This document shows, piece by piece, positions 6,070 to 52,422 of a stretch of DNA of 64,000 nt. Under the pieces are notes generated by a model that saw nothing but the letters and a program-made list of their open reading frames with translations, was not told the DNA's origin and did no database searches. Positions within the stretch are counted from its first letter, which is position 1, and every line of letters starts with the position of its first letter. The translations under genes and the position numbers were made by a program. The stretch comes from Deuterostichococcus epilithicus (Eukaryota; Chlorophyta; Trebouxiophyceae; Prasiolales; Stichococcaceae): NCBI GenBank assembly GCA_033439295.1, contig JAVTLE010000001.1, positions 2,170,001 through 2,234,000 on the forward strand, read 5' to 3'.

Positions 6070-7771
6070 TCACAAACTGCCGGCCCCAAATAGCGACCAG
6101 GGCGACGCCTCGGCATGCACATATTCCATCGGCTCATAATCTAGTGCCGAGCACGATGGAGGTACCCTCTCCCAAGTGCCATTGAGCTTGTACAGCTGGT
6201 GGAACCGCCCACTCATGAAGGCGCCTAGGCTACCGAAGCGGCTTCTGTGGCCGACGACCTGGTACTGTGTGAGCGAGAACAACCATGCCTCTGCAACAGC
6301 CGTCCTGAAAACTTCTTGCGCCTCGTTGCTTGTGGCATCGGCAAAGCGAGTATGCCCTAATGGAACTTCTAGGCTCGTCATTAGCTTGGCGCCGAGTGTG
6401 GCTGATGCCGCACGTCGCAGCAGCATCGAGTCGCTGATTAAGTACCAGAGGACTTGCTGGTCCGGCGAGCGGCGCCGGTGAGCCTCGATTTGAGAGGCGC
6501 AGTCAAAGTAGGGTTTGTGGCGCTCCACTGAGGTGCCTCTCGTCGAGTTTGGGTCTTTCAATGCAGCGTCGCCAACCCTGATCTGGATGCCGATCGTCAG
6601 CATCGATGCGTCGTCCAGATGCTGCAATTCTGTGGCGTAGGGCGCCAGCACCTCGGGCCGCAGACGCACCAGGAAGTCGAGGCCGCAGGCAAATGCTGTT
6701 GTGGGATTGACGCCAAGGCGGTAAAATTGTTCCTTGTGATGAGGGTTGTCCATCAGCAGCATGATGTAACCAATGTAGGACGTCACTTCGATGACCTTGA
6801 AATGTGCTCCGAGCTCGCGAACATCCTGCAATGAGTAAGATCATTGCTGGAACACGAGTCTGACATGCGAGTTCGACAATGTGCAAGCAACTGGCAATGA
6901 GCTCAGGGATCAACAGCCCGTTGTCGAAATGGCATGTCTTCAAATTTACCTTGTGTTTGATGTGCTCAGCGTCTTGCTCAAACCTATTGAACAACGTGAC
7001 GTTGAGTCTCATGGTTGCGCCCGGCTTTGCCATGCTCTCATCCCTGGTTCATGAGCACGCCGCCATATGACATTGGCATCTCACAGCCCGTCACCATGTT
7101 GAGCAGATGATCAACTCGGGGCCAAGGCGCAGACCATGTCCAATTGATGTTAGGTTGCCGAAACGCCCATTCATAGGACCCTTCAGCTCCAAAATCCATG
7201 AAGAAAGCCCGTCGCTGCAATATCGCAATGTAGAGCATGGTAACCGCCCCCAGCAGAGAGTCTGCCAGACCATTAGCCCCACGTACCACCAGACTACGCA
7301 ATGGAACCCGCTTGGCCAGCATTGCTGCGTGCATCTGTGCATATTCATGCTGCCAAGTATTGCCGCACTGTAGCACCCTGCAGCATCCAAAGGCATGCAG
7401 TCTTGGAGCAGCTGGTAGGGAAACCTCGTCGCATGGCAATGTCCTCTCTAAGGAGCACCTTGCGAACGGCTAATATACTGCAAACGCTCTCAGTGTTGAC
7501 TTTCAGACCTTGAGACTGGCCAAGTCTCGTTCTGCTGCGTCGATGCCTGTGGTTCAGCTATGGTATCGAGACCGTGGTACACATTCGAGGCTGGTGACGA
7601 CAAGGTTGCCGTCCAGGAGGATTCCGTCCAGATTGAGCTGCCTTGCCGTTGTATCAGCATCAGCGCGATAGCGAGCGTGAGGAGTGCAGGAATCGCCAAC
7701 CAGATAAGATGCCTATGCAAAGCCAGCCCGCTACTGGTCGCGTTATGCATGTCTGGCAGACTGCCTGCCAT
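6070..7771 (-). CDS. GT37/NodZ-like fucosyltransferase, paralog 1
   Basis: Four exons, 7509-7771, 7135-7377, 6950-7043 and 6070-6825, close in phase to give 451 aa. The N terminus has one membrane anchor (about residues 21-40), then a short stem. Exon 2 carries VVRGANGLADSLLGAV and RRAFFMDFG, the GLxDxLLxxV motif at the start of the GT-B fold in xyloglucan/NodZ fucosyltransferases. Exon 4 carries LTIGIQIRVGD (donor-phosphate-binding HxR/IQxRxGD-type strand), WYLISDS and HRSRFGSLGAFMSGR. GDP-fucose is the likely donor by family; the acceptor is unknown. Two paralogs occur at 27214-29475 and 42879-44560. Unlike them, its whole C-terminal half is one exon. ATG 7771 is chosen; ATG 7750 is a close alternative. 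Confidence 0.85.
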
Positions 7772-11895: not shown

Positions 11896-13789
11896 CAAGG
11901 CACACCCATCATCAATTTTCTCCACCACACCACCGGCCCCGATGTCAATATCCTGATCTTGAAAGCCTTGGTGCTCACCACGCTCTCAAAAAGCTATATG
12001 TGCTCCTACTTTGGTCGCACCTAGACTCGACCTGCAGCTTCCGCTTCTCGCTACCACCAGGTCGTATGAGTCGCAGGTGCATGGAAGCCAAGGGTAACAT
12101 GTATGCATGTGTGTGTCGTGCCTAGATTTTCAGACGGTGACTGGACGACAATGTGATGCAGCGGTATAACGAGTCAGCATTACATACCCCAACTTCACGT
12201 TGATTGCCATCGAACAGTCTGGACGCCTTCAGAGAATACTCTAGATGATGCTTGCGATTTGTGAACGTTCTAGAGACAGGAATAGTGCATCCGGCAATAC
12301 AGGGTTTAGATTTGGGAACATTGCTATAAGAGCATTGCGCAGGCACATGTTACAGAACACTTCTTGTTCACAGTTCTCGTTTGCAAAGTCTCCTCTCCAA
12401 CTTGTACACAGTCCTCCAGTCGCGACTCTCGGAACGCAAAACGTCGAAACTCAGAACCTACTTCCAGTACCTCCACAAAGACAGATTGAGGCCACGTCAG
12501 CATTGCAACTTGCAGTCTGCAAGGCCCCATTCTGTCACAGTGGTGTATTGGTGCCGTAAATTCGATCCAGACGCCAGTGCCAAACAAAGTACTTGAACCC
12601 ATCGAAGCCAAACGTCTGCTGACTGCAGCCCGCGGCCGAGCCCGCGCTACCGCTAAGCGCCGCCGCCCCTCCCCGCCAAGCGGAATCACAAAGCACAGGC
12701 CAGCTGCTCACAGTCAGGCCATCGCCAAAAGCCAAGCCCTCCTCTCAGGTGCTCTACCTCACCACAGGTGCGTTGCGCCCACCCAAGCGCTGCGTGCCGC
12801 CTCCACCTGTGCTCCGCTTGCCGTTGCCGCAAATCTCGGCATCACCACTGCCGCTGCGGCCGCCCTCAAGTTGCTTGCCGCTCAGGGTTTAGCGCAGCAG
12901 ATATAGGGTTTTAAACCCTAAACTGCGCGCGCTCGCGCTCTGCAGTGTCAGCCTGCAGTGGGCCTGATTCTGCCAGTAGTTCCGTTTACAAGGTCGTGCG
13001 CGCGAAAAAAAGGAGCTGTATGTTGCCAGCAGGCTTTCGTGCATTCCCGCATTGTGCCTTGAATGCCAGGAGGCTTCTGCAAGACGCTCAGTTGCACGAG
13101 GTCGCTGCACGAGGTTGCTGCTCTGGTTCTCCGATGTGCAGTGCAGGACATTGAAGCCGCGCACAAATATAGGTCGACGCGGCCAGTCGCTACCATTATG
13201 GCCATAATTGCAGCACGCGTCGCAATCATTAACAGCCGGTCCTATCCATTGAGGACGACGATGCGGTGGATTTTGTGGATGGCGATGCGAAGGTGATAGA
13301 TGGTGTGCGGTGGCAGCGGCGCATGCAGCATGGCACTCTATGGTATCATTTTCTGGTGTATGTTGTATGTTTGGACAAGTTCGGACGAAACCATGATCTA
13401 ATTTATTTGCTGCCTCAACCCCAATCAACCACAGCGTTGCTGCCCCTGATACCGATAGTCAGGCTCCAAGCGGTCGATGGCAAGTTCGGTGCATTGACCT
13501 GCAGCAAAGGTGGAGCCCGACGCGGAGGCATGAGAGCGGAGGACAGAGAACTGCAGCTGTCTGACAAGCCTGCCGACCCTTATGTCAAGGCGGTAGAACT
13601 GTTAAGAATCGAACCCTCTGGAAGCAATAGTGTGTGTCACTCCGTCATCGAGCATGGTTAGGACACACTTTCAGTTCGCGGAAAACAATTTGAACATCTC
13701 ATAGGTACCTATGCTTGTTCTGTGCAAAATTGTAGTCTTTATAGACCGCCAGCTCGTCATGCGCACTGTGCGTCCGGGCATTGGCGGCC
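11896..13789. other. Intergenic with telomere-like motifs
   Basis: No gene supported. Two AGGGTTT/AAACCCTAA telomere-like units lie head to head at 12904-12923. Open frames at 12577-12906 (Ala-rich) and 13266-13661 show no recognisable domain or convincing splice sites. Confidence 0.45.
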
Positions 13790-14450
13790 AAGAGGGAGCC
13801 TCTCTTCTTCCTGTCCATTTCCCTCTTCCCTCCATTCCAAGGTTGCAAAATTGAAATTTCCTCAGTGCTGCTGGCCAGCTCCAAGGCCTGCCCCCACACT
13901 TCATCTTCTTTCCTTTCTTCCTTCTTCTGTGGCGGCGCCAAAGACACTCCGCTGCGGCTTGCGGCGCGGTAGGCCACGGCGGACCTCAAGCATGATTTGC
14001 CTTTCCGTGCTTCCCCGGTCCTTTCTTCCTTCCTTTCCTGTTGCGAGGGTGCCCGAGAAGAGGGGGGAGGGGGGGGGGGGGGTTCCCCCTCAAATAAACT
14101 ACAATACATTCCTTTAAGTTCAATTGACTCCTAAGTGGGCGGTTCCTTGCGCTATACTTTGCGCCCTACAAAACACGCCATTCCCATGATTTAGAAAGCG
14201 AGAAAGAATGCGAAGAAGAAGAAGTGCAGCTCTGGCGGCGGCGGAGGGCTGGAGCACTTAGAATATTTCTGTGCGGCAAAGGAGGGAAGAATGGGAGGAA
14301 GAAGAAGGGGGGACCCCCGGCTGCTGGGGGAGGGCTAGAGAACTTGAAAGAATTCGAACCTCAGATCACGAAATAAAAGAACGCGAGTTAAGAAGGGGGA
14401 AATGTCACAGAAAGGTCTACTTATGTGAGCTAGACCTGACCCCCAAGCTA
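13790..14450. repeat. Polypyrimidine then polypurine low-complexity block
   Basis: The first part is rich in ttcctt/cttctt tracts, and the second in gaagaagaag tracts followed by gcagcacttagaa-like endings, forming a loose inverted arrangement. It includes a long G run near 14068-14083. Related purine-rich units occur at 31300-31790. Confidence 0.65.
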
Positions 14451-14716
14451 GAGGCTTGAGGGATGTGCCCTCTAGATGCTCAGTGTAGCATTGGAGTAGC
14501 ATTGGAGGTTTGATCAAGATGATCTCCCTCGGCACGCGAAGGCTCACGTGGGCAGGACGAACGTTATTAGTCCTGCCACCATGAATGAACGGTGATTTTA
14601 ATCACCCCCAACCCAAACTGGAAAGCTTGTACACGCTAATTGTTTGAGAGAAAGACACAATTGTCACAAGAAAGAAGGGGTGACTTTCGTCCGTCCGGGA
14701 TGCTGACGGAAGAAGG

Positions 14717-14925
14717 TCCCAGCACAGAGCGCTCAGGCAGTGAGACCTGTCTCAGATGCTTGTAAAAGAGAGCACAGAGCAACTCAGGCAGTGAGACCTG
14801 TATACAGCCTTCGTCGGTGCAGAATAGGCAGCCTTGCGCGGCAGCGTACGCCCGAAAGCTACCAGGAGGTAGCACGAACGCAAGTTCTGTCACCAGGTGC
14901 AGCGACGTGGCACGCTGAGCGGGCA
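14717..14925. repeat. Interspersed repeat family, copy 2 (inverted)
   Basis: Contains two tandem cagagcrnctcaggcagtgagacctgt units, then sequence matching the reverse complement of 9531-9680. The flanks to 15712 hold no gene I can support. Confidence 0.65.
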
Positions 14926-15274
14926 GGGAAGTCAGCGGCTCGAGCGTGATTGGCAAAATACTGGGGCGCTTGGGGCCCCGCCTCGGGGCGAAAACCCGCA
15001 GAATCCGGTTAGTGACTCCGGTACACGCCGACTCAGGCTCCGAAACCTACAGTGCGAGCGGGTGGATCGCACTCAGGCGGTGTCGGCCAAGCAGCAAGTA
15101 CACAACAGGAAAAGGAGCACTTAACTACGATCCCTTCTCCCTCTCGGCCGTGTGGCACGTCCATATGTTGGGCGCGCTTTCAAGGCTTCACAGAAATCGT
15201 TGGGGAAAGGGGCCACAACTTTACCGCGTGCGGTGCGAAGGCTTAGCACGCGTAGCTTACACTCAGTGTGAAGC

Positions 15275-15335
15275 CCCGCAATTAGTAACCCCGGTGACCG
15301 TATACCGGTCCCAACATCCGGTTACCGCCCCCGCC
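15275..15335. repeat. Palindrome-rich repeat, inverted partner at 34525-34580
   Basis: The sequence attagtaaccccggtgaccg with nearby ggtcccaacatccggt reappears reverse-complemented at 34525-34580. A weaker third version lies near 15005-15030. Confidence 0.5.
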
Positions 15336-15712
15336 GGCAAATTAGTCTAGTTGGGAATGAGCTTTCGCCGACTTTCTGGGCAAATGAAGGGAAATTCGAC
15401 TAGTTCGACCCCTTTCAGCACCCCTGTGCCTTTGCCTTTCCCAGAATATTCAAAACTGTCGCCGAGACGGCCGTGAGACGTCCCCTTCTTGGCCGTGGCG
15501 CAGCGCGCAGCGGTAACATTATCGTTGCAGACTCTCCCGAGACGTTTGCAGGAAAATATTGCTTGCATCTCTGCCGTCCTTGTCTCGTCGCTGTCGCAAT
15601 GCATGCGGCAGCGGCCACCTCGTACGCACTGGACTAGTCCAAACTGTCCAAAACAGGGCCCAGCAGCCTCCAACAGCGTCAGCAAAGCTGTAGCAGCTCA
15701 CAAGCGCCAGAA

Positions 15713-18700
15713 ATGTCAACTCTGCCACCGAGCGTGGCGCAACAATGCGACATCTGCAAGGAGTTGGAGCGCACGACCCGGACTGTGGTAAGTAGGCTAC
15801 AGACCGCAAGTGCTGCTCGTTGATGGGCAATCCACATATGAGATGCATCAATCCAGCACTGGAACATGTCTTGCAGCCCAACGAGAGAGGTGGCCGGTGG
15901 AAGCTGTGCACAGAATGCGCCCCTGGGCAACCGTTCCCGGCGCAGCAGGTATGGCCTCTCTTCGCTTATACAATTTTGCACGGTCTGCTGTTATGCTTTA
16001 CAATGCCTGCACAGCAATCTTTTTCGACATGACAAGGGATCCATGTCGGTGCTGCTGTTTTTCCAGGGAACTACAGCAACAACAACTGCGCCACCAGCGC
16101 ATGTGCGAGCAAGACCAGCGCTGCAGCAGCCGCGAGGCGAAGATGTAACGCCGCGAGCGCATCCTGCTGCAGCAGCAGCAATTACAAGCCCACAGGTGCA
16201 TCGGCAGCTGGACAGAGCCGGCGAGGGCTTCACGCCGCCGCCGCAAAAGCGGGCGCGCATTGACGGTGGCCTCAGCCCATACAACACAACAGGTGCACGC
16301 TGCAGCTTCACATTGAGCTTCACGCGAAACATGACTTCCAATGATTAGTGGAAGTGTTGGAAACGGAGCCACAGGCCATCGGTTTAGGTTATTCGAGTAG
16401 TCACACATGGTACATGCCATGCGTGTCGGTGTTGATGCACTGGCTGCATGGAGCGTGTTCGAGGCTGCTGAATTCCGAATGCACGAGATCACAAGGCATA
16501 GAGCCAGTCAAGCAAATGAGTGCAGGTCGCCAGCATGCACACTCTGGCACAGCTGCTGCCGATGGGGCTCCATCGCTGTCTTACTCCCCACTGCTATGGG
16601 CCTTCGATGTAGTTTGCGGAAGACTTCGTGGACCCTGCCTGTAGGTGGACGGCATGCCGGTCGCCTGGCCGAAGGCATGCTTGCGCAGCCTGGCATTGCC
16701 TCGCGGCAGCCGCTGATGCGGGGCGCGCCGGTGGCACCACACAGCACAGTCTTCGGAACCGGTAATCTGGTGCCTTGAGCACTCCCTCCCTCAGAGATTT
16801 GCACAGCTGATCGATGCTGCCGCTCACCACATATCTGTTGCTGCACTGCATCTGTACACCACGAATCTGCTATACAACTGCAACAATGCTCGCAGCGTCA
16901 AGCAATTGCTCACGAGGGCTCTGATGCTTGATCCTTGCTTCGCAAGGGGGACAGCCGGCGGCAGCTGTGGCCGATGGCAACGCTGTGCAACCTGGCTTTG
17001 GTCTGCCACCGCTGTTGCGGGGCATGCCCATGGCGCAGCCAGGCTTCGGTATGCCGCCACCCCTGCCTGGCGTGCCAGCAGCACCGACCAGTAGCTCCTT
17101 TGCATCAAGCATGCTGACCCATTGAAGCACAGTTTTGAAGCGATGCCTACAGCCGACTGAAGCTGCCCATCCACCGACATACCCGCCGCTGTCCTGCTGC
17201 TGATCAGCAGTTGGTATCGTACCTCTTCTTATCCAGAAAGGTCAAGTCATCCAGAAAGGTCTGGAAAAGTCCACCTTGACGATTCAAGTCCACTCCGATG
17301 GCAACAGTTGATCGTGCTTACAGGCGCACAGCCGCCTGAGTTCAGCAGCATGCGCAACGAGGGCAGCGCCGCGCCGCCAAGCTCTCGCATGTGGACGCTG
17401 CGGCCGGGCATGCCGGCAGCATCGCACGGCAGCTTCTTCGCATCAGGTGCGTTGGCGGCAAAAAGCAATCCACAACTTGGCTTTAGAGCCGGTGCTTCGG
17501 CTATCCAATGCGCCTGCACCAGTCGGGCTGCTGCACATGCCTGATGCGAGACAGGCGTCCCTCTTCAAGCATCGCACACATTGCCCACCAAGCTTTCTGG
17601 TGATGATGGCGGAAGCTGGCCCTGTCTGCAGGTGAACGGCAGGCAGGTAGCAGCCTGTCGGACAGCACGGCAGCGCAGCCGGGCTTTGGCGTGCCGCCGC
17701 TGCCGCACAGCGCAGGCCTCGCATCGGCCCAACACTTCTTCGCATCAGGCACGCCAGCACCCCGAAGCAATCCCCCAGGTCACGGCCATAAGCCAGTCTC
17801 AGCTGCATGCTGGCCTGTTGCTGGCCAGAAATGTATGTCATGCGTTCCTTGTAGGAGTGCACACAGCAATCCGCAGATCCATCAACACCTTTAGGTTTCG
17901 AGAAATCTTACATCCTACATACCTGCAGGTGGATCGCAGCTTGGTCACACCTCGAGCTCAGCCAATAACACACTGCAGCAGGGCTTAGGCATGCTGCCGG
18001 TGCCGCGGGGCGCGACGCCAGCATTACGTGGCCCCTTCTCCAGTGCAGGTTCGCCAGTGCATTTAGGCTTCTTGCCCTGGTTGGCCAGGCCCTCTAAATT
18101 GGTGACCCAGCCTTCGTCTTGGTCGCATTGTTACCTCAACGGGATCTGACTTCATCAGGTGGTGCCTCAGAGGATCACCCATGTTGACACGCACTTGCTC
18201 TGGTTTGATTGCTGCAGATCTGCGGCAAAACTCAGGCAGTGGTGTCAACAACTCTGGGGCATTGCCAAGCAGCAATGCAGACCCAGGTGTATTTTCCAAA
18301 CAAATCAAGCACTTGACTCGAGTGGGCAAGTCGCTCGTGGTCCAGAGGTATATATGATCGCAGTGCCGGGCATGCATGTGAGGTTTAAGCTCCAACGGTA
18401 TCTAAGGCTGAACTCCCCACCGTGCAGGTCCGCCGCTGCGGCCAGCCAATGGCCAAGGCTATCATGCTGCAACAGCTTCGGCATTAGGGCGGCGGCCTGC
18501 CCAGGTGAAACGTGCTCCCGGCACTCGCCAGCTCTTTGCCTCACGCGATGCGGGATGGGGGCCGGTCAAAACGGAGATGGAGGCGCAGCTGGCTACTTCG
18601 CTTCTTACGATGCACACTCGCATCACAACCAGTGGCAGCGCGGTGACCCGCTGGGACCTAGTGACTATCAACTTTAATTTGGCCGTGTGCCAGCGGTGGG

Positions 18701-19209
18701 AGGCTGGCGGGGATCTGCTGGGGATGCGATACAAGACGGAGAAGCATTTGAAAGCCTGGCACAAAGAGCGGATAGCACAGCAGCAGCAGCGGGAGTGCTT
18801 GCGGACAGCAGCGGCCATGCAGCAGGCTGCCATGCGGTCCGTTGAGGTGGCAACGCCTGCGGGTCCGCCTACTCCTGTGGGCCAGCCCCGCGTGGGGCAG
18901 CCTGTAGCTGCAGCTTCGGGCGCGCGGTCGCCGGCTGTGCTGCCAGAGCTGCGCGCACCCAACATGCCATTGGCCCCGCCCGTTCTCAGCTGCTGGAAGC
19001 CTCCAGCCAGCGCCATTGGCAGCGGCCTGGGAGGCAAGGATGGCCAGAAGAGCTGCCATTTCTGCTCCAACCACCTGGGGTGGACTGCCAAAGCGAGGCA
19101 TTGCTGCTGGTGCACGTTCAAGGCGGCGCTGCAGCCCCCGCCAGCAGGCTGCCAGCCGTGCGCCAAGCAGGATGGGCGGGTGTGCCGTTGCAGCTATTGC
19201 ATGGGCTGA
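15713..19209 (+). CDS. GATA-finger/SANT-like nuclear protein with Cys-His C-terminal motif
   Basis: Ten exons (15713-15787, 15877-15948, 16067-16292, 16645-16761, 16947-17090, 17324-17446, 17632-17778, 17929-18048, 18218-18286, 18428-19209) close in phase to 624 aa. Residues 12-39 form C-x2-C-x20-C-x2-C (CDIC...CTEC), GATA-type spacing, split by intron 1. A nuclear signal, PPPQKRARID, follows at about 107-116. Residues 125-365 are Pro/Gly-rich repeats, roughly one per exon. About 395-465 is a Trp-containing helical segment (RWDLVTINFN, QRWEAGG, KTEKHLKAWHKERI) resembling a SANT/Myb-like DNA-binding unit. The last 54 residues carry C-x2-C...HCCWCTF...CRCSYC, shared with the next gene. Likely a DNA-binding regulator, or an accessory protein of the neighbouring transposase; the role is inferred. 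Confidence 0.75.
16645..18048 (+). repeat. Exon-modular Pro/Gly repeat units within the GATA/SANT gene
   Basis: Five successive exons (16645-16761, 16947-17090, 17324-17446, 17632-17778, 17929-18048) encode variants of QPGFGxPPLxRGxPxA followed by a Ser/Phe-rich FASG-like end. All are flanked by phase-1 introns, so units can be added or lost without frame change. The spacing is near 300 bp, consistent with tandem duplication of an exon plus its intron. Confidence 0.7.
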
Positions 19210-19301
19210 AGGCATGCATAGGAATCGTCCAGAATGCTTCTGGAGACGGTTCTCTGACGTTGCAAACTTGAAATTATTTGCTGCGCTCCCAGTCAGACTC
19301 G

Positions 19302-19306
19302 TGTAA
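19302..19306 (+). terminator. TGTAA poly(A) signal of the GATA/SANT gene
   Basis: TGTAA 93 nt after the stop codon, a normal distance for green algal genes. Confidence 0.5.
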
Positions 19307-19564
19307 ATCTGGGGCTGACCTTTCAAGCCAAACGACTCTAACCTCATCCTGGTCGGCTCTCTCGCAGGCCCAAGACGATGGTCCACCCTGCCGAGCCCAA
19401 GCCAACGGGCAGCGCCATGTTACGTCCACACATGGCCCACTTGCAATCAATGGCAAGGTGTGCAATATGTTCATGCTATTGCGCTGCTGCCTTGTTTCGC
19501 TCAGTGGCCCACACAAACTGGCCCACATTGGGTACGTGCATACTCACATTACAAGCACAGTCGT

Positions 19565-20868
19565 CGTGCAGGACCACCTTGTGACATCGGCCGCTCATCT
19601 CATTGTAGCGCTGCGGCAAATGCTCTCCAGCAGCGCCAGTGCCGAAGGTGGTTTGCCCCAGCCTCAAGCACAGCTTTGTGTCGACATCAGTATGGCTGTT
19701 ATGGAGCTGCTTGCACCGAGCTGTCAGGGCCAGCAGCAGCATGAACCGCAGCAGCAGCCCGCTCTACTGACACGCGTGCGGCTGCAGCAACAGCAGCAGG
19801 CAGCAGAGGAGCAGCAGCAGCAGCAGCAGCAGCAGCGGCAGGCAGCACAACAGCAGCCGCAAGTCGAGCGGGCGCAGGCGGCGGCGGCGGCGGCGGCTGA
19901 TCTTTCGACATTGCCGGCACCACGGCAACAGACACCACCGCCCCGACACGAGTCAGCTGAAGTGCAAACGGAGCTAGCGGCTCACGATGTTCGGCACGGG
20001 CCATCGCCACCACAACAGCAACCAGCAGCGCTGCAGCAGGCGGCCCGGCAGCCGGCAGCTCAAGCATGCCAAGCTCCGCTCACACAAGCGACCCCACAGC
20101 CCGCCAGGCAGCACGCAATGCTACAACAGGCGGCGCAGGCTATGGCTCGAGTAGATCGGGCGGCGCAAGTGCAGACGCGCCCACAGCAGAAGCAGCAGCA
20201 GACAGTGCTACAGACGGCGCAGTCAGACTTGCAGGCTGTTCAGGGCAGGCATGAGCAGTTGGGGCAAGTGCAGACGGCGGCACTATGGGCGCCAAGCGAG
20301 CAGCAGCAGCAGCAGCAGCAACAGCAGGGTGAGAGCGGAACGCACGCGAGCATCCGACATGCAAGTCAATGTCATTAAAGTGAACTGGTCTCAAGCCCAG
20401 TCTCAAGCAACTGTGTTGCAATCGCGCAGGTGACATCCGCCCCTTAGGTGGACCCCGGCGGACCCCACTATCTTCGATGCAGGCGCAGGCAAGCATTAGT
20501 CTCACCCCTGCCTCGTAGACTCTTCTGGCACTCCTGGCAGATGCGGCTCTCATACAAGTGTGTACTGCTATGCACAGGGCGATATCGGCACGCCGCCGCC
20601 GCGGGCGGTGATCAGGGGCTCAGGCAGGGGCGGCGCTGGCGGCAAGCGATTGTGCAGGCAGTGTGCAGATGGGAATGGCAACCATCCCCTGAAGGAGAAT
20701 CATCAGTGTTATTGTTTCCGGAAGTCATTGCAGCAGCCTGTCTCTGATGATGTAGTAGGAAAGTTCAAGCGGCTAAAAGGAGGCTGCCGCTGCATAATTT
20801 GCAACCCCGCGTTGGCAGGCAGAGTTCGAGTCTACAATAAAAACAAGACACTTGCAAGGCGGCCTTGA
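19565..20868 (+). CDS. PolyQ protein with the same Cys-His C-terminal motif
   Basis: A long open exon to about 20330 is Gln/Ala-rich, with CAG-run polyQ tracts near 19784-19840 and 20300-20325, and ends at a possible CAGG|GTGAGA donor. The last exon starts near 20579 after a cacag acceptor and ends at TGA 20866-20868. It encodes KRLCRQCADGNG, ENHQCYCF and GCRCIICN, the same C-x2-C...H-x-C-x-C-F...C-x-C-x2-C pattern that closes the upstream gene, so the two are probably tandem relatives at their C termini. The 5' end is uncertain: the acceptor at about 19565 or an ATG at 19693 are options, and the phase between the two exons is unresolved. Probably nuclear and zinc-binding; function unknown. 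Confidence 0.5.
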
Positions 20869-20887
20869 ATTCTCGGGTGTTCTTAGT

Positions 20888-20892
20888 TGTAA
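20888..20892 (+). terminator. TGTAA poly(A) signal of the polyQ gene
   Basis: TGTAA 20 nt after the stop codon and only 16 nt before the convergent transposase stop, so the two 3' ends must overlap. Confidence 0.6.
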
Positions 20893-20907
20893 AATTCCTA
20901 GAGCATT

Positions 20908-23900
20908 CTACACATCGGCTCGCACGAAGGCGAGCAGCCCCACCAGCTGCCGCTCCACCATCGGCAGCGCCGCCACACCCTCAGGCGGCAGAAGCTGCAG
21001 GCTGCCCGCAGCGGCCATGTCGTCGTAGTGGTACCATTGCGGCGCCGCCCCCTGCGGCGCCGCCACCCTGACGTAGCCGCGGTGGTGCCGATTGGCTGCT
21101 GAGTAGATGCTGACCGCCGCCAGGTGATACTGCTGACCGCCGAGCGCTGCGCTGCAGTGCGCTAGGTCTGGCGCGGCTGGCCGCCCCCCCAGAGCATTGG
21201 GGTTGTTCAGGCCAATGTTCACAAAGAGAACAGCCGGAAGGCAAAGAAGCGGTTGCCGCCGCCGCTGCTGTGCATCCTCGAATGCGAGCTCAACGCACTC
21301 ACCAGCGGGGATCTCATACCCTGGCCCTGCCGCGCTAGCGCACCTGATGATGATTCCAATGTTAGTGAACCAAACTCGCCACACAGGAACGACGGTCATA
21401 GCAAACACAGGTTGCTGGTTGCACCCAAGGTTTCTGGATAACGCACCGCCACTGGACATCATGAGACGCTGCAATGCAGGCGATGACCTCGGTGTGCCCC
21501 TGTGAGAGGCCAGCCACCATATCCTCCATAGCCACAAAGTCGCCCTGTGCATGACATGGCAGATTGTTCTGAAACGATTGGAAAAAAGTTTGAAGCAATG
21601 CCTTGCACAGCCAAGAGGTGTCATGCGCAAGCCTTGCCGGCCCGAGGTGGTCAAAGCGAAACTGGTTGGGGACGGAACTGGTAGGGGACGGGCATGGAGT
21701 CCTACTCGGGAGCATAGACATATACACAGGCACGCACCCGCTGCCACAGGTGCCCGGCCAGCCCAGTCAGGGCCCAGTCGGCGCTGTGCTCCACCACCAG
21801 TGCCTCGATGCAGCGCTGCTGCGCCGCCAGCATCATTGTCAAGGCGGGCACGCTGCGTTGCCCGCTGAGCATGAGCTGCCCCGCTGCACCAATGACCGTG
21901 CCAAGCGGGCCCAGCTGATGCAGCAGCGCAGGCTGGTCGGACAGGATGAGGCCCAAACACACAGCCAGCGTGTCCTGGGCACATAGGTTGTCTCGCCAGG
22001 CCAGACCCTGTGCATGCCACACAATGAGTATAAAGGGGGCTGGGACGCATTTCCACTTCCAGGGTGCAATGGGCAATTGGACGCTGCGGCAAATTGGCGC
22101 AAGCGCACCTGGATGGTGTTTGCAGGTGGCGGTCCTGCTGCGGTGGCCACTGCAGCAGGCACCCTTGGGGCAGGCACTTCAGGCGGTGCACCCGTTGCGG
22201 CAGGCGATGCAGTGTCTGCTATGCCGGGAGCCTGTGCACATCACAAAGAGCCTGACCAGCGTGGAAGAAGCACACGAGACAGCATATCAGGATGGCCGAT
22301 TTCGGCGAACGTGGATGCATGTCATCGACACACCTGCATGTTGGCGGCAGCGGGCGCAGCACTGCCTGAAGGAATGTGGCAGAGTCTGAGGTTGGTGCTC
22401 AGACAAAAAACAGAGTCTCACAAGCGGCAGGCAAGCATATATGGATTTGGTAGCTTGAACCGTGATGCACCTGAGCGACAGATCTCCTGGTTTTGTGTCA
22501 GCTTGGCGGTCGCCGCTACATGGCAACACACGAACGAGTCATGCGCGACAAGGCTTCATTCCCTCAGACATATGCAACACCCGACACTTGCACCTTTGCT
22601 CAAACGCATCCAACGCCTACTAAACAGCCGTTTGCAGCCATCAACTCAGCTCTGCGAGATGCTCACCGTCAGGCGCCGCTGCAGCCTGACTGACAGCGGC
22701 TGGCGTGCGCTGGCGTGGCTGGGCAGCGCCCCAGTTCACCATCTCTGAGCAGCAGAGAGGATCAGCAAACGAACAGAAACGAAGACACAACCGACAGGCT
22801 CAGAGATGACAGCTGCCCCAGAGTCAAATTCGAACGATTGGTCATGCCATTCCGGAGTTGATGGCGGACTGAGCATCATACACCTCGGAGCTCGTCGAGC
22901 TGCTGCTGGGCTGCTTGTGGCAGCTGAGGCAGCACGAACGCCACGCCTGGGCGAGCAGCCGCTGCCGGCCCTGTGCTGAGAGGCGCGGCAGCGGCCACAC
23001 TGCTGGCCGATGCGCCGGCGGGCGCTGCTTCGCCAACCAGTGTGCCGCAAGCCGCTTGGTAGCCAGCCATTGCTCTGCCGGCCGCCGCGCCGCCAGCCAT
23101 CGCTCGGCCGGCCGATGCGCCGCCAGCTGTGCCAGCGTCGGCCACGATGACTGGCGGCTGTTGGCCTGCAGCCACCGCCGCCGCCAGCTGCTGCGCCTCG
23201 GCAGGCGGCAGCACGAGCGTCGGCTCCGACAGTGGCGAGATGTCAACATCTTCGAAGCAGAGCTCGGGGAAGCGGCGTGCTGGGTAGTTGGCCTCCAGGC
23301 TCAGGTCCTGCAGCATCTTGACAAGCTGCAGGTCGTGCACGTGGTGCTCTGCGCATCCCCGGTTGTTCACGCCCTGCGACGACAGGAAGCTAAAGTTTCT
23401 CAAATTCCTGCATGCGCTGCCAAAGTTGAAGTTCAATTGACAAAGAGCATACAGTGCTGGATCTCGGGACTTGCAACGGAGAGGCCGCATGCCGAGTTTT
23501 ATAGGATAATCCTATCTGGCAGATGTGCAATGCGCTGTCACGTGAGGGCACTTGGCGGATGTTGAAGTAAGTTGTGTTCTCTGAGATGAGAGCAGTCGCC
23601 AGCTCCATGCCGCAGCCGTCGCCGATGTAGGTGTGCAGCTGCTTGTTGAAGTTCTCCACTGGCGAGGTGCCACGCGCCGACAGGACCAGGCCAGCAGAGT
23701 CCGTCAGGTTGGTCAGGTTGGCAGAGGCCGGGGGATCTGCAGTCAAGCATGGTCAAGCACATGATATGCTGAGGTCCAAGTGCTTGTGACGCACTGCCTA
23801 TGACACAAATGCTGATGCTGACGGAGTCCAGCGCGACCCAAAGGCGCTTCATTTGAGCATGGCGCCACTGATAAAAAACGCACCTGTTAGGAAGCCGCGG

Positions 23901-26485
23901 GTGATGTTCTGGATGAGAAGCAGCATCGCCTTTGGCGTGTCAGCGGTGAAGCAGGACCAGCCGGTGGTCGGTTCAAGCCTCTGCCTATACTCAAAGTAAA
24001 GCTGCAAGACATTTGCAATCGCCTCCACTGGCTGGGGTGTGAAACGCCGCGTCCGCTGCTTCCACCAATCCTTGCTCTTGCCCAGATCTGCAGCTGTGGC
24101 ACCGCCGCGATCGATAACCTGCTGGCGAGTCTCAGAGGCCAGGAGCGCCTCCGACAGGGCTCCCATGAAACGCCCTGTGCACTGCATCAGGTATGTTCAG
24201 GAAAACGTACGTGTCAGCCGTCATGATTGCGCACAGGCATTTCAGCAGCACCCCCAAGTCTGCACAGCTTGCCCACCAGCCAGAGTCACAGCGCCAACAA
24301 CAACAGCGCAGCATTCCAGCGCAACACACCGGTGAGGGGGTGGCCGGAGTCGCAGGTGTCGGTGACACGCCACATGCCATGTATGATATCCTGTGCACAA
24401 ACATAAAACATTGGGCTTGAGTATCTGATCTTGCAAAATTTCAGCGCCACCATGCTGCGCTGTCACTGCCTGGCAACGCTAGCAGGTATTTCTACCTGCT
24501 TGACACCATACCCTCCAGCCGCCTTCAGCAGAGTTGGTATCGCCAGCGGCAACAGCTTGTGGGCGGCGACAGCATTGTCCGTGTATGCCACCTCCACCTG
24601 CACCGAGGGGGACACCCTTCAGCATCAGGCAATGATTCAAACGAGATGCTTTGACTCGAGAGAAGCGATGCAGCCACCGCTTTAGTCAACGACGATGCCC
24701 AGTCAGTGCTGCCGCTTGACATGCCGCGCCATGAGAGGGCCTCCAGTCCTAGCTTGGACTTGGACTTGGTTACATACTGTGCAGTCATGTGGCTGACTAT
24801 AGCACAGGCCCGAAGGCGATCGGAATGCGCAACATCGGGCGACAAGCTGAGGGAACGAACGGACAGCACGACACTCAAGAGGCGAGGAAACAGCACAGAG
24901 ATACACCCGGAAGCTTACCTTACCGCCCAGCATCTTGACGCGCTCGCCGTAGGCCTGCAGCAGCGGCACAACCTCCCTCCACGCATCTGTGCCCGCTGTC
25001 ATCAGCACGTTCACCACCTGATTGAACTCATTCATCATGACGAAGATGGACTTGTACATCTTGTCAAGGTCCTTGATGCCCTTGAAGGCACCTGTGAGCC
25101 AGGTCACGCACAGGGTATCAGCAAATCGTAGCGGTACACACCCGATATCGTGTTTGCAGCTGCAAGTCAGACGGACGACAAGGCTGTTGAAAGGAAGGAC
25201 ACAGCAACAGCACTCCGGTGCAAGCATTCGAATACGAACACTGACCGGGCGACCAGTCGATGCGCAGGCTGCGGCCGGCAGTTTGGTGCATCAGCAGGCG
25301 CTGCAGTGGCTGCCGGCTCTGCTGCCTCGGCAGCCAATCGTCGCGCAGAAAGCCTCCGGTGATTTCCCGCACGACTGCAGTCTGCCAGGGTCTGATGCGC
25401 AGTCCCAGAGCCGCTGCAGTGTCCGGAGCTTCTTGCCGCATCCGCCGGACCCCGACCAGCTGCGAGCGCACACCAGAATGTGATTAGCAAAGATTGACCT
25501 GCTGTAGAGGGGGTTCCTGCATCTACGTATTACTCTTCATTGCTGCTGCAGGTAGCAGAGGTGGAGGAAACAATTGCGAGGCAAAAGGCAAGCAGACGGC
25601 AGCATGCAATCTCGGCGGGAGCCAGCTCGGCGACTACGCCTCATAAAGTGCTTTGCACACACCTTGTCATGCAGGTACAGGGCCTCCCGCTGACGGTCTG
25701 CATCGTGGGCCCGTGCTGTCAGGCTGTCCGCGAAACCTGCAAACGAGACGTGGTGGCGCACAGCATGCTCCACCTCTCGCACGACAGTGGTGCTGAGCAC
25801 CAGCTGCTTGTCACCAGGGCAGTCCCAAATGGGCAGCAGCAGGCGCTGCTGAATGCTGAGGGCATCCCAGAAGTCCGCAGCGATGTTGTTCGCGAGGCCT
25901 GCGTTGCATATGAGTGGCGGCGTCACGCGCACCGCAGCTGCGGCGCCGCTGTTCATGCCGGCATTGTCATCCGGTGCAGGCTGTAGCGCGATGCACATGT
26001 ATATATACTTTTATATCATGAAGGCCCTTCCGCATTGACTTACGTCTGCATGCCGTGCACTGCAGCTGCGCGTAGATGAGGAGGCATTGATCCTCGCTGT
26101 CGACCAGGACCTTGCTTCGCCACGTCTTGATGGTGACGCCCGTGACTTCTGACGGGCAGGCGTCCAGTATTTTGCGGTCCTCAGGACGTGGCAACGCCCG
26201 GCTGCAGGCTGCATTGGCGCAGAAGTTGGGAGTGCACCCGAACACGAAGGCTTTCCGCCCCGACAGCTGATAGTCGAGCAGCGTGTCCGAGGCGCCGTTA
26301 CGAGCTGCATGCGGCTGTCTGATCCAGCAGCAGGCGGCGCCCGGTCCAGAGACAGCGCGCGCAAAGCCGCTGGGCGTCCGGTCAAAGCGCGTGCAAACGG
26401 GGCTCTGGCGCTGATGCAAAAACGCTGCCAATGTACGCTGGCGCCAATGCTCCTCAGGAGTTCCCGGAGGACGTGCTGGAGGCAT
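20908..26485 (-). CDS. DDE-type transposase with C-terminal USP/C19-like peptidase domain
   Basis: In-phase exons: 26044-26485, 25663-25937, 25246-25459, 24919-25091, 24496-24597, 24330-24390, 23884-24174, 23552-23736, 22884-23373, 22667-22744. They encode an N-terminal Cys cluster (ending LQCTAC); RSLRIDWS (first acidic); IFVMMNEFNQVV; VEVAYTDN (second acidic); an Asp-rich HPLTG segment; and ARGTSPVENFNKQ. This set is typical of a transposase family common in algae, fungi and cnidarians with VMNE and RGTSxVE motifs. Further exons, with less certain junctions, carry WRDNLCAQDTLAVCLG (near 22000, a possible Cys box) and a last exon ending at 20908 with QYHLAAVSIYS, HHRGYVRV and QWYHYDDM, matching the USP His box. 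The start is taken as ATG 26485; upstream exons are possible. No TIRs were found, so it may be domesticated. Confidence 0.7.
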
Positions 26486-26880
26486 CACATTGGCAGCGGA
26501 CACGCAGTTGGATCAACTGCACCTGACTGATGCGATCTGCACACGTGTCTGCAGCTACCTGTCAATTTGTGCGCAAGCTGCAGCCTGGTTCCAGTGTCGA
26601 TGCGGCGAGTCTAAAGGTGCAAATGCGCTGCCGAGGGGTGCCGTGGCCTCGTTGCCCTGGTCCGCGACTTCAAGTAGCCTACTTCTCAGCCAATGGGAGG
26701 CGAGGGTTCGCCTAGTGAAGTTGACTACTTCAGTACTTAAGGTTCATTCCCAGGCTGCCCAACCCTCCCCCGCCTAGCCAGTTATCGTGTAACAGTGGGA
26801 TGGCAGTAGGGCTAACAAGCTGCTCAAATTACCCTCCTAGTCTCTTGTGTGCAGCTAATCTTTAATCTAGGGTTTACTCT

Positions 26881-27054
26881 CAGGTGGCCCTGTAGAAGGC
26901 AGCCCACTCAGGACAGGGGACGATTTGGGAGAATGGAAAGGTGTTTCAACAAAAAAATAGCTATTGAAACCCTCCTTCGACTTGCGCGAGATTAGTTTGA
27001 TTGGAAGTTGGACACTGGGCCGAGGGGCAACTTCCGGTTTCCAACCGCCCCATG
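26881..27054 (+). repeat. Upstream repeat shared by two glycosyltransferase genes, copy 2
   Basis: Begins caggtggccctgtag, then aggcagcccact, cgatttgg and, later, aacttccggtttccaaccgc. Partner of 9961-10134. Starts just after a tagggttta telomere-like motif (26869). Confidence 0.7.
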
Positions 27055-27213
27055 TCTTTTGGCGTACATCAGCCTAAACCGATTAGCTACTTCATGACTC
27101 TGCCGGTGAAGAGCACAGCAGGAACCTCGGGCATTCTTGCAGGTTATAGTGGAGCCGTGCTGGGCGCATGTGTGCTCGAAAACCTTGGACGCGCTCCCAG
27201 TGGCTGCGGTTTG

Positions 27214-29475
27214 ATGCGACGAGTAGCGGGGAGGGATGCACAGCCCCTGTCAGACACGAATATATTCCAGGCACACCGCTCGAATAGCTTTCCGTATTCT
27301 CTCATCGTGCGTCTTCTTGCTATTGTGGTGCTTGTCGCGCTGCTGAGCTCTGGATCAACGACCGTTTGGAACCATGCAGCCAATAGCACGCCAGCAAGCC
27401 GAGCTGCGCGCCCAGTTGTTTCCACAAGGTAGATATATGTGTGACCCTACCTGGACGAGACCTGCAGCCTGGTGGCGACTTGCCTGTGTGACCGCTGCTG
27501 CCTGTCCGTGCAGCTCTGTACACTGTGGCGCTGGCTGGCAGTTGCGCTATAGCGCGCTGCATGCAGCCATGAAGGCCGGGCGGGAGCCGCAACGCTGGCT
27601 GGTCGCCCACAGCTCCGGCGGGCTGGCGGACCAGACCAGAGGCGAGCTGCCGCAGTGGCTGTAGCTTTGTCCATGGCACGTGGTGCCGCAGGCTGCTATG
27701 CTAACTCCGCATACACGGTCGCAGCCGGCGTCGTGCACAGCAGGGCGCCGCCCTGCCAGCTGTTGTCTCGGCCTGATGTTGAAGAGTCTCGCAGGAGCCG
27801 TCTCCCTGTTGTACCTCGCGATTCTCACGGGTCGCGCGCTGGTACTGGATTTTGGCCACGAACGCAACTGGGAATGGGCCTTCGAGGCCCCGAACATCGA
27901 CTGGACGAGGTGAGCCGAACAGCGCCACGCAAACATGGCACAACGCTGTTTCTGGAAAGGCCTGTTCGGCGACCGCGACGCCTGCCAAGCACCAGCCAGT
28001 CAGCGAGCGCACACTGCCGTGCAGGGACGCCAGCCTTGAGGATGTAAACTCCACTGTCACATTCCTGCTGTCCGACAAGCCGCAATCCATTGCCAAGAGC
28101 TCTGAGCATAAGCTGTTGCGGGAAGGGGTGAGTCGTGTTCTCGCGAGGCATTGCCGTCAGGGCCGCCCCACCCCTTTCTGGTGGCCGCGTGGCATCCATG
28201 CAATACTGCACCCGCCAAGCGCACACGGCCTTGACAGGCCTGCACGAAGTCTCTACAGGACGCTGGACTTTTGGGCGACGGCTTCCAGACGATGGCGGTG
28301 CACAGCAACTCCGGACTGATCTTTCCGCTCTTTCAAAATCCGAACCACAAGGTGGTGCGACCCCGCATAATTCCTGTTGGCTGCCAACAGCGGACGCCTG
28401 CTTGCACAGACGGCCATGTCATGTTGTCTCGTATTGGACCGCAGGAATTTTTCAGGGGGACGGGTTTGCGCCCCCAGTCAGCTTTTGCTTGTGGAATGAA
28501 CTTCTTGATGCGCATCAAGCCGACAGTGCTGGATGCCTTCAGCACAGAATTGCAGGCCCTGCAGGATCCAACCATTCTCAAAATAGGAATTCAGGTGCGA
28601 GCACTGCAACATGAAGCTTTGTGCAGCTACTTCTGGCACAAGATTGCGGAAGCTGCAATGACGTCATTAGTGCTGCCGCCAGATCCGCACTGGCGACAGG
28701 ACGCTTATTGACGGCATCGATTCCGCGCCTGTGGAATGGTGCGCTTGCCGAGCTCCTGCAGTGTTCAAATGGCTTGCCCTGGGTGTCAAAACGACACACA
28801 TTCTGTGTTGTACAATAACGAAATCGTGGCTTCTGCCTGCCAGGTATGCGGCATTCTTTAAATGCGCTGAGGACCTCCGACAGAGCCTCACAGCCGCCTT
28901 GTCGCCGCCCAAGGCAGTCAAGTTTTACCTGATCACGGACAGCACTGCGCTCCGCGTGGCGATGCAAGCTCAGCTTGGCACGCTGCTGGTAACAAACACC
29001 AATGTGACGGTGGAACACGTCAAGTACAACAGTGATTCCACCGCAGAGGTGGCCTTCAGGAATGCAGCCGCAGAAATGTACCTTTACTCGCTGGCAGGTG
29101 GGTTCGGCGTCAAATCTATCAATGCCTGCGGCTTGAGAACTAAAGACTGAATCGTCCTGCATGACGAGCCATCTCGCCGCTACTTGATGGCTGTGATATT
29201 CTCCCTCCCGCAGACTACCACATCTACTCTGTCAGGAGCGGGTTTGGCAGGTCAGCTGCTGCTGCTTCCTGCAGCTATCGATTGATATTTCACATCATCC
29301 GACATCCACATTCATTCAGCCACAGACGTGCCCTGCCCTGCACAGGCTTGCTGCGAATTGGAGTGGCCGCTGGAGCAATGCGTTCGGCATCAAGTACGAG
29401 CACAGGCTCAAGCGGCAGCCCGCAAAGCATCGAGCATGCAGGTGGCAGGATGCGGAAACATTGGCGGCGGCGTAA
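27214..29475 (+). CDS. GT37/NodZ-like fucosyltransferase, paralog 2 (intron-rich)
   Basis: Exons 27214-27428, 27514-27634, 27776-27909, 28025-28127, 28259-28351, 28445-28594, 28683-28738, 28844-29097, 29214-29250 and 29346-29475 give about 430 aa in phase. Membrane anchor follows ATG 27214 (SLIVRLLAIVVLVALL). Motifs: HSSGGLADQ + KSLAGAVSLLY, RALVLDFG, PTILKIGIQ|IRTGD across intron 5, FYLITDS, and VRSGFGR|LAANWSGRW. All but one junction are GT-AG and align with paralogs 1 and 3. The exception is 27635-27775 (141 nt), which interrupts the GLAD motif with no good donor and holds an in-frame TAG: either an unusual intron or an insertion that would disable the gene. Upstream repeat shared with the GT-A gene. 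Confidence 0.75.
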
Positions 29476-42878: not shown

Positions 42879-44560
42879 TTAGAAGCCCATCTTCTCTAAA
42901 GGAATGTACCCGTCACTGCCACAAGTCCTTTCAGGGACTGGCTTCAAAACTTTCACTGCACGTGGGGTATGATCCAAGATATTCGAGTCCATCCTGTACG
43001 CATTGTGCCACCTCCCGCTCAAGTGAGCGCCCAGCCGCCCGTATCTGCTCTTCCCTGACACAACATGAAACTGTGCAAGACTGAACAGAAAGAGCTCTGC
43101 AGCAGCCGCTTGAAACCCAGCAACAATGTTCTCGGTGTTGTAGCGCACATGCTGCACCACGGCATCTGTGCTCGTGATCACCCGCTCTGGGTACATCTTG
43201 GCGGCCTGTTGCCGCAGCAGCTGAGAATCGGATATGAAATAAAAATATACTTTGCTTGCCGACGTCGAATTGAGGCTGTGCGCCTCTGCTATCTGGGCTG
43301 CGCATTCGAAGAAAGCACTGTAGAGCTCAATTGCCACAGCGTTCGAGCTGCGCACAAGGACATCGTCGCCGGTCCGGATCTGGATCCCGATGGTCAGAGC
43401 TGACGGGTCTTGCAAAATGTTGAGCTCCTTCTGGAAAGGTTGGAGGGCCTCCTCCTTGACCTCCACCAGGAAGTGGAATAACTGAGCAAATGCATTCCCC
43501 GGGTGGAGCCCCATACGATACAGCTCCTGCCTGCGCACAGACATCCTTTGAGTGAAAAGAACGTGGTTCGGTCATGGGCAAAAGCGGCCTTGCATGGCGG
43601 ACGGAGAACCTTCACCTGTGGTAAGGGTTGTTGAATATCTCCAATGTTGCCGTATATGCTGTGTTGACGATGATAATGTCGTGCTCCTTGCCATACTCGC
43701 GCAAGTCCTGCACCACATGTCCGTAGCTTAAAGGAATATAGACTTACTTTAAAAAAAATTAATAGAGTAATCGCTAAACAATACAGCTGATTCCACTGAA
43801 GGACACACGAAAGACACTGCGGCGATGAATATTCACCTTGGATTTGATATGCTGCACATAGTCATCGTCTGGGTTTTTGGGGTTGATTAAAGGCTTCCAC
43901 ATATTACTTTTCATCTCATCCCATGGAGTGTCCCTGCAGTTTTGACGGAGCGCATTGGCAAATCTTATACTGTTATCTCTTATTTGATTTTAGCATATGC
44001 GGCGGTTGTGCAAACGCAAACCTCGACAGAACGCACGCCTACCATGTCCAGTTGAAGTTCGGCTGACCATAAGCGGCCTCAAATGCGACGCCTTTTGCAG
44101 AGAATGTCATGAAAAATGCTCGGCGTTGTAACAGCGCTACAAGAAATCCTGTTACCGCAGCCGACAGGGAGTCGGCCAAGCCGTTTTTCCCCTGCACGAC
44201 AAGATAACGCCGTCCTGCATCGCCTTGCAACATTGCCGCGTGAAGCTTGCTGTATGCCGCTTGCCAGTCATCGGCAAGACCGCTGGGACGACTGGGCCTG
44301 CAACCATACAGCCAATGTCGTCAGGTATTGTATTTTCAAAACCTGCGCACGTAGACAATCGCAACAGGAGGAGCACGTATGTACCTTGCCGGCGGCAACG
44401 CTGGAAAATGCAGCTTCGCTGCGGTGTCCGACTGCGGCGCAAGCTCTCGACAGCAGAAGAATGAGAGACCCGCATGTGGCCCAAAGATCTCGTGGACAGC
44501 AAAGGTCATCAGCACCAGCATGACAAAGATTACCCACGGTGCCCGGACTGAGTCGGCCAT
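42879..44560 (-). CDS. GT37/NodZ-like fucosyltransferase, paralog 3
   Basis: Five exons, 44385-44560, 44043-44297, 43837-43933, 43616-43707 and 42879-43530, give 423 aa in phase. ATG 44560 precedes a membrane anchor (VIFVMLVLMTFAVHEIF). Motifs: VVQGKNGLADSLSAAV, RRAFFMTFS, LTIGIQIRTGD, YFYFISDS and KSRYGRLGAHLSGRW. The first three introns fall at the same codons and phases as in paralogs 1 and 2. It has an extra intron after NPYH, where the acceptor at 43531 is chosen because it gives gap-free alignment with paralog 1. GDP-fucose donor by family; acceptor unknown. Confidence 0.85.
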
Positions 44561-50837: not shown

Positions 50838-52422
50838 TTAACCGCACTGCGGCAGGGCCAACCGAAGAGATGCTATGCTGACCTGGGCCAGGCGGGCGGC
50901 GCCGACGCGGGCGTAGTTGCAGAATCCGTCTTCATTACGAGTATTACTGAACGCCGGCGTCGCGGTGTAGAAGTAGGCGTCCGTTGAGGCGCCGCACGCG
51001 GCCATCGCAGCAGCCACCTTGGCGGCTACGAGCGCGTTGGACATGAAAGCTGGAGCCCTGCCGACCCTGGCGCAGATAGCCACTGCCGAGGCTGCGCCGG
51101 TGGCGTAACTGACGGCGGGCGCCGCACGATTCTGGTACACCGCCACGCCGCCGAAGGAGCAGAACGTCTGCGCGCTGGTGGTGGTGGCTGGCACTGACGC
51201 ATGCGTTGGCAGGGGCGCCGACGAGTAAGTTAGCGCAGCGGTTGGAGCCGGCGTTGGGGCTGTTGTTGGAGCAGGCGTTGGGGCCGGGGTGGGCGCGGCA
51301 GTCGGTGGCGCAGTGGGAAGAGCTGTCGGCGCAGCCGTCGGCGCAGCTGTCGGCGCATCCGTTGGTGCAGCTGTCGGCGCGTCTGTTGGTGGCGCCGTGG
51401 GCGCGTTGGTCGGCGATGCAGTGGGCGCATCGGTCGGCGCTGCAGTGGGCGCGTCGGTCTGCGCCGCTGTGGGCGCGTTGGTCGGCGCTGGCAGCGGATC
51501 CAGGTCGGGCACCTCTTGGAAGTTGGCCCCCGACGGCGCCGGCGTCGGCGCCACAGCTGAAATCGGGCTGCGGCGCGCTGTGGGCTTCTTGGTGGGCCTT
51601 TTGGTGGCAGCCCTCTTCCTCGTGGGCCGCCTCTTGCTGGGCCGCTTGTTCTTGTGCCGCCGCTTGGTGGGACGGTTCTTGGTGGGCCGCTTCTTGGTGG
51701 GCCGCTTGTTCTTGTGCCGCCGCTTGGTGGGACGCCGCTTGGTGGGACGCACTGCCGCAGCCGACTGCAGGCCGGAGGCTCCGGCGGCGACACCGCGCGC
51801 CGTAGCAGGTTGCAGCTTCGCCAGCGTCGACCGAAGGACCGAGGCCTGTGCCGGAGCCACCTGCAGCATGAAATGGCAACTGGGTGAGTGCTTATCAAGT
51901 GTCCAAAGGACATGTGGAAATGTGTCTGCGGGGTATAGCTGGCGACTTGGCGAGTTCACAGAAGTACACGTCGACGTCAGGTCCCGCTGTCCTGGTGGCA
52001 GCTGCAGGCCATCGATGGCTGCGGTTTCTTTCTTTCTTCTTTCCTTTTTAAAGGCTTCCGGTCGTTGAGACGCTGGAGCGGCAGGTCATTTCGGGACCGA
52101 CCCCAACTGTATCCTGAACGTCACAGAGCTGACGTGCTCTAGGCTGAAATCTATTTTTGACCTTGCCAAAAAAAACTGTCGTTTATTTACTAGTCATTTC
52201 CTCAAACATTTGGAGATTACTCATGCGTACTTTAGATTGTGTACCAAGCTGACACACAGTACAAAGTTACGTAGTGAGTCAGCCGAGGCTGCTGCTCACC
52301 TCGCTGGCGGTTGATGTGCCCTCCGCGGCACACGAAGGTGCAGTAGCTGTCATAATGACCATCGCAGCCAAGCACACAAGGATGCGGGGGCCCGTGCTGC
52401 GGCTGCACTTGGCGGATGTCAT
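50838..52422 (-). CDS. Secreted PTxAPT-repeat glycoprotein with basic PTKRR repeats
   Basis: Two exons, 52300-52422 and 50838-51860, join in phase to 381 aa. ATG 52422 opens a signal peptide (RILVCLAAMVIMTATAPSCA). Next come a Lys/Arg-rich block of PTKRRxKNKR-type repeats (about residues 75-125), a long (A)PTxAPTxAPT block (about 160-260), and a C-terminal domain of about 110 residues with four Cys (AQTFCSFGG, VAICARVG, AAMAACGAS, EDGFCNYARV, ending LALPQCG). Pro/Thr repeats in algal secreted proteins are usually hydroxylated and O-glycosylated; the basic block could bind acidic polysaccharide (inference). The long plus-strand ORF 51289-52068 is its antisense shadow. Confidence 0.8.

Follow-up and report, generated by a model that had tools for sequence, protein, structure and literature searches.

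A Putative Fusion of a DDE-Type Transposase and a USP-like Cysteine Peptidase Region in a Low-Copy Repeated Segment of the Green Alga Deuterostichococcus epilithicus

Introduction

Could a transposable element carry, on its own transposase, a peptidase that removes ubiquitin? The question is raised by a spliced gene, here called gene A, on the minus strand of a 64,000-nucleotide stretch of the genome of the green alga Deuterostichococcus epilithicus (the window; C1:2170001-2234000), which we compared with the whole genome (46.8 Mb, 21 contigs). An original prediction had described at this place a DDE transposase that appeared to be fused to a peptidase of the ubiquitin-specific protease (USP; C19) type. 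From the sequence of the locus and of its second copy, we hold with moderate confidence that an old, very low-copy DNA transposon of ~11.2 kb is present, and that its main gene encodes one protein made, in order, of a Cys-rich N-terminus, a DDE core, a linker rich in Ala, and, at the C-terminus, a USP-like (C19-type) cysteine peptidase.

Results

One Frame Spans a DDE-Type Core and a Peptidase-like Tail

Gene A runs from 26485 to 20908 and consists of 15 exons that join in closed phase (Table 1). The spliced sequence of 3294 nt gives 1097 codons and a final TAG (20910-20908), with 0 internal stops, and the 14 introns, 101–321 nt each, all start with GT and end with AG. The closed-phase exons of the original prediction were thus confirmed, and every motif that it named was found on the minus strand between 20908 and 26485. 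The ten exons that it counted are probably exons 1–10 of the 15-exon model, because position 22667, which it also named, is the end of exon 10 in this model.

Along the protein, the candidate residues come in the order D-D-E first and then C-H-D. The Cys-rich N-terminal region (CTPNFC at residue 84, CTACR at 143) is followed in exons 3–8 by RIDWS (at 305, D307), VMMNEFNQVV, YTDN (D375), and RGTSPVENF (E547), a series with a spacing of 68 residues from D307 to D375 and of 172 from D375 to E547. The core can provisionally be called DDE-type, a family name taken from motif order alone. A matching order of short motifs would occur in those DDE proteins of fungi and animals that carry MNEFGQ, Y-x-DN, and GT-x-x-x-E, a likeness judged by motif alone. 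A linker of 185 residues (34% Ala) leads from exon 9 to exon 12, and exons 13–15 then carry the boxes DNLCAQD (C831), RHHRGYV (H1039), and WYHYDDM (D1060); some fungal DDE proteins of the MNEFGQ type have a 3'-5' exonuclease instead. As candidate catalytic residues, C831, H1039, and D1060 follow the Cys, His, Asp/Asn order of USPs, the Asp lying 21 residues after the His, with YHLAAV before and WYHYDD after.

Does a single gene join the two parts? We trained splice-site models on ten gene A introns, leaving out the four linker introns, and let them pick the highest-scoring in-phase chain between the end of exon 9 and the acceptor of exon 13, with 300 dinucleotide shuffles of the linker as the control. 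The linker chain scored 62.9, which none of the 300 shuffles reached (maximum 60.6). Some lower-scoring in-phase chain was present in 282 of the 300 shuffles; phase closure alone is therefore little proof, and it is the quality of the sites that carries the test. The best chain comprised exons 10, 11, and 12 as read by eye together with one small extra exon (22515-22471), so that the linker is not fixed in detail. Among the sites of gene A, the models scored the donors of exons 5 (4.1) and 8 (3.9) and the acceptors of exons 11 (2.1) and 13 (2.4) as weak.

A Decayed Copy Keeps Both Ends of the Gene Together

Gene A lies within a repeated segment of ~11.2 kb, the other copy of which was found at C16:76074-82308 by protein searches with the tail and with the N-terminal part. 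In a blastn comparison, the C16 copy matched the window in the blocks 26766-26015, 22099-21325, 21227-19138, 17608-19135 (inverted), 17605-17343, and 16311-15595, and on both sides the similarity was lost sharply. A deletion from intron 1 to intron 12 has removed exons 2–12 of the C16 copy, including the DDE core, and exon 1 stands directly beside the peptidase exons, with stops and indels. Because exon 1 and the peptidase exons are both kept, both ends of gene A belong to one unit. At the candidate triad positions, the decayed copy reads NLCAHD, HHRGYVR, and WYRYND.

The fusion that the original prediction proposed is, as far as a gene model and a second copy can tell, the best reading of gene A: a single frame joins both parts, the linker scores above all shuffles, and the C16 copy retains exon 1 with the peptidase exons. 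The USP/C19 identity of the tail, on the other hand, is indicated by residue order only.

The C16 copy also has a structural peculiarity of its own: its ~1.5 kb block corresponding to window 17608-19135 (positions 7251-8771 of C16:72500-82000) is inverted relative to the window copy.

Is the Segment a Transposon, and Is Its Tail a USP?

Terminal inverted repeats (TIRs) were not found in either copy: aligning the two ends in inverted orientation gave a best score of 20 for the window copy (60 shuffles: mean 19.4, maximum 28) and of 22 for the C16 copy (shuffle mean 18.3, maximum 23). Target-site duplications (TSDs) were absent from the boundaries of both copies, with 5–6 bp flank repeats seen elsewhere only. 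The genome search with the DDE core protein matched the window alone, DNA searches with both segment ends found C16 only besides the window, and no further copy appeared among the candidates scored; since only the best candidates were scored, two copies is a lower bound (at least two). Of dispersed copies, some internally deleted, which mark a transposon family, one was thus seen, the C16 copy without exons 2–12. The segment ends may have decayed, or the duplication may not have been a transposition. In a search for an empty site, the right flank had no other match past the end of the element.

To the left of the segment lie other repeats, namely 13431-13685 (5 other places, 86–93%), 14403-14668 (4, 91–93%), and 15051-15115 (at least 16), as counted in the best 40 of 83 candidates scored. 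Neither a tRNA search of the window nor an Rfam search of 13000-28000 gave any match, so these repeats are explained by neither.

Was the protein once under constraint? Between the window and the C16 copy, exons 1 and 13–15 differ at 173 of 1158 aligned sites and intron stretches at 79 of 375 (Fisher p = 0.006), and codon positions 1 and 2 differ at 102 of 773 sites, compared with 71 of 385 at position 3 (p = 0.023). The divergence is, however, uneven, with merely 24 of 273 sites different in the non-coding 281 bp upstream of gene A and 25 of 156 in the 3' stretch 20907-20750; the exon–intron contrast is therefore weak evidence of a past constraint on the gene A protein.

The transposase core matched no Pfam family when the whole 1097-aa protein was searched (E ≤ 10), and residues 1–638 matched 0 chains among the PDB sequences. 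The transposase found no relatives in IMG/VR, nor did its core in phages (one match at E = 6) or in bacterial and archaeal genomes, collections with few eukaryotes in which an absence says little. The MNEFGQ motif, used as a DNA pattern, hit 34 loci in IMG/VR, and tblastn of the whole gene A protein against those 34 gave nothing at E ≤ 1.

For the tail, the original prediction had proposed a profile search of the 3' exons against Pfam UCH/Peptidase C19. Single exons, the joined tail, and the whole protein were searched: six exon or joined gene A pieces matched no family (E ≤ 10), eight raw open reading frames (ORFs) gave two matches and seven proteins one match, all below the cut-off, and the 3' exons thus yielded no UCH or C19 family. 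The 49 matches of UCH (PF00443) in the genome include none at the gene A tail, and the tail matched 0 chains among the PDB sequences. A profile of the host USP His box gave the tail 0.4 bits, and the host USP Cys-box profile did not report the exon 13 frame. PROSITE-like USP patterns fit 9 of 9 host Cys boxes and 6 of 7 host His boxes and did not fit the gene A protein. A relaxed His-box pattern was found in 7 of 7 complete host boxes and in 1 of 1839 window ORFs, the gene A tail exon, compared with 0 of 22,624 control ORFs and 0 of 20,000 tail shuffles. This pattern describes rather than tests, because it was set post hoc, after the window had been seen, and because five incomplete fragments of the 12 host His-box fragments were omitted to leave the seven. 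An AlphaFold2 model of exon 15 alone, without the rest of the spliced tail, had a mean predicted local distance difference test (pLDDT) score of 37.6 and was of no use. The tail had no relatives in IMG/VR, where eukaryotes are few and an absence says little.

The USP/C19 label is accordingly divided: the C-H-D order and the post hoc relaxed His box speak for it, and Pfam, the genome UCH search, the PDB sequences, and the host USP-box profiles speak against it. By its residue order, the tail resembles a USP, and we do not file it as a USP/C19 member.

Could these results be better explained in another way? The segment may no longer be a transposon: it could be a piece of host DNA that was duplicated, or a former transposase, now domesticated, that also has one decayed copy. 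We consider this possible and rather doubtful; it would fit the finding of two copies and no more among those scored, the lack of both TIRs and TSDs, and the window frame that is intact although the introns differ from those of C16 at 79/375 sites, but the similarity extends no more than 118 bp and 281 bp beyond the two start codons and does not reach the neighboring genes, and internal deletions like that of the C16 copy are typical of non-autonomous copies. The element may also hold two genes, the transposase ending at the TGA 22878-22876, with the exon 9 donor unused, and a separate peptidase gene starting from the ATG 22742-22740 in exon 10 (MVNWGAAQ). In favor of such an arrangement, an in-frame TGA directly follows the exon 9 donor, and exon 10 has an ATG close to its start; the gap between them, however, is merely ~130 bp, intron-like, and ends in a pyrimidine-rich stretch and CAG, and the chain that uses the exon 9 intron outscores all 300 shuffles, which makes two genes quite improbable.

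The fused tail, finally, might belong to a different class of cysteine peptidases, or be no peptidase at all, and be USP-like in motifs only, an explanation to which we give some weight, well short of an even chance. Every profile and pattern test of USP membership being negative argues for it, whereas C, H, and then D at +21, with YHLAAV and WYHYDD, is the order of USPs. Ulp1 peptidases have the order H-D-C, unlike the C-H-D of the tail. Nor is the order the Asp-x-His of the VTD deubiquitinases, as described in PMC9741609.

A Probable Convergent Gene and Other Features of the Window

Probably, and tentatively, the favored transposon has a second gene, gene B, which runs convergently with gene A, the two stops being 39 bp apart. 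Its frames were read by eye at 15713-~17860 and ~18650-20868 and show CxxC motifs, a basic KRAR patch, QPGFGxPP repeats, a Gln-rich part, and a Cys-rich last exon. In the comparison with C16, in which the frames of two pieces were assigned by hand, the last exon has 15, 15, and 23 differences at codon positions 1, 2, and 3; the other pieces have little or no codon-position bias.

Table 1. Coordinates within the window of the repeated segment, of gene A, and of the tentative gene B.
Feature	Positions	Strand	Content or basis
Repeated segment, putative DNA transposon	15595..26766		Extent set by similarity with C16; exact ends uncertain
Gene A, exons 1–3	25246..26485	-	Cys-rich N-terminal region and start of D-D-E series
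Gene A, exons 4–8	23552..25091	-	DDE-type core: VMMNEFNQVV, YTDN (D375), RGTSPVENF (E547)
Gene A, exons 9–12	22109..23373	-	Core end and Ala-rich linker
Gene A, exons 13–15	20908..22007	-	USP-like cysteine peptidase region, C831/H1039/D1060
Gene B, tentative, exons not resolved	15713..20868	+	Frames read by eye; comparison with C16

Outside the segment, we observed by eye a set of resembling ORFs with IGIQIR and YLISD or YFISD motifs at 6070-6840 (-), 28235-28711 (+), 28671-29150 (+), and 42879-43571 (-), which probably belong, as dispersed paralogues, to a single family of enzymes, perhaps glycosyltransferases. Exon-like frames at 61129-63740 (+) resemble, in their motifs, a starch or glycogen synthase. 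A long frame at 50838-52085 (-) has KRRPTK and PTxAPTAAPT repeats and, after them, a tail that contains Cys.

Discussion

What could a transposase gain from such a tail? In the proposed mechanism, D307, D375, and E547 would cut and join the element, and a papain-like triad of C831, H1039, and D1060 would remove ubiquitin. Because of its tether, the peptidase might act on the transposase itself and spare it from the proteasome; alternatively, it might act at the element on ubiquitin marks linked to silencing or repair. Provided that both halves are functional, the tail would strip ubiquitin (SUMO is the less likely substrate) from the transposase, repair factors, or the chromatin of the element. 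That the tail interferes with silencing through host ubiquitin or SUMO, as the original prediction raised, is a conjecture. Related proposals have been made for other systems: the Ginger authors propose a repair role for protease domains on transposases (PMC2836005), the VTD authors speculate about overcoming limits to transposon inheritance (PMC9741609), and fungal transposons that carry TET/JBP genes offer a parallel for cargo directed against silencing (PMC12730594).

If the reading is true, ubiquitin removal would be built into the transposition complex of the element, and the gene A product would be a compact protein for testing ubiquitin removal in transposition. Cysteine proteases of the ubiquitin/SUMO pathway are recorded on several unrelated mobile elements (PMC2836005, PMC9741609); a further lineage, different in protease type and with an unassigned core, would add weight to the view that transposition or the escape from silencing is aided by ubiquitin removal.

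Comparison with Known Systems

Does the element belong to a described family? Ginger1 was rejected, there being no Pfam integrase match in the gene A protein and no TIR (the GPY/F motif itself was not scanned), and the KDZ group (Kyakuja, Dileera, Zisupton) was rejected because the gene A protein has no Pfam family and no TSD was found, Zisupton having a TSD of 8 bp (PMC12730594). IS3EU elements of rust fungi have the ends TAYGG..CCRTA and a 6-bp TSD (PMC12730594); TAYGG was absent from 15300-15720 (+) and 26485-27100 (-), and no TSD was seen at the boundaries, in a test in which no IS3EU protein was compared. Chlamydomonas genomes contain Zisupton and Kyakuja elements (PMC8226300), to which nothing was found that links the gene A element. 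The open-access literature searched held no matching algal element, and the available parts of PMC12062965 and PMC6431247 no closer case.

Close parallels are found among described systems. Ginger1 DNA transposons, which carry OTU or Ulp1 tails, are like gene A in combining a DDE transposase and a C-terminal cysteine protease of the ubiquitin/SUMO pathway in one protein, but they have a Gypsy-type integrase core and TIRs, and their tail is OTU or Ulp1 rather than USP-like (PMC2836005). The VTD deubiquitinases reside in Helitrons (Helentrons) and are thus likewise carried aboard a mobile element, which, unlike the gene A element, is a rolling-circle one without a DDE core, and their active site is Asp-x-His (PMC9741609). 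The Trichomonas vaginalis protein XP_001314237.1 unites transposase_11 with Peptidase C19 (PMC2836005) and is a fusion of the same kind, a transposase with a C19-type domain; compared by description only, it differs in that its core is transposase_11, whereas that of gene A has no Pfam family.

It is conceivable, though we would put it forward with considerable reserve, that the locus represents an undescribed lineage of green-algal DNA transposons, with one transposase protein bearing its own USP-type deubiquitinase, a second, convergent Cys-rich gene, and no classical inverted-repeat ends. Transposases that bear an OTU or Ulp1 tail are already in print, as is one Trichomonas transposase_11 joined to C19; new here, as judged from the predicted protein, would be a core without a Pfam family and an algal host.

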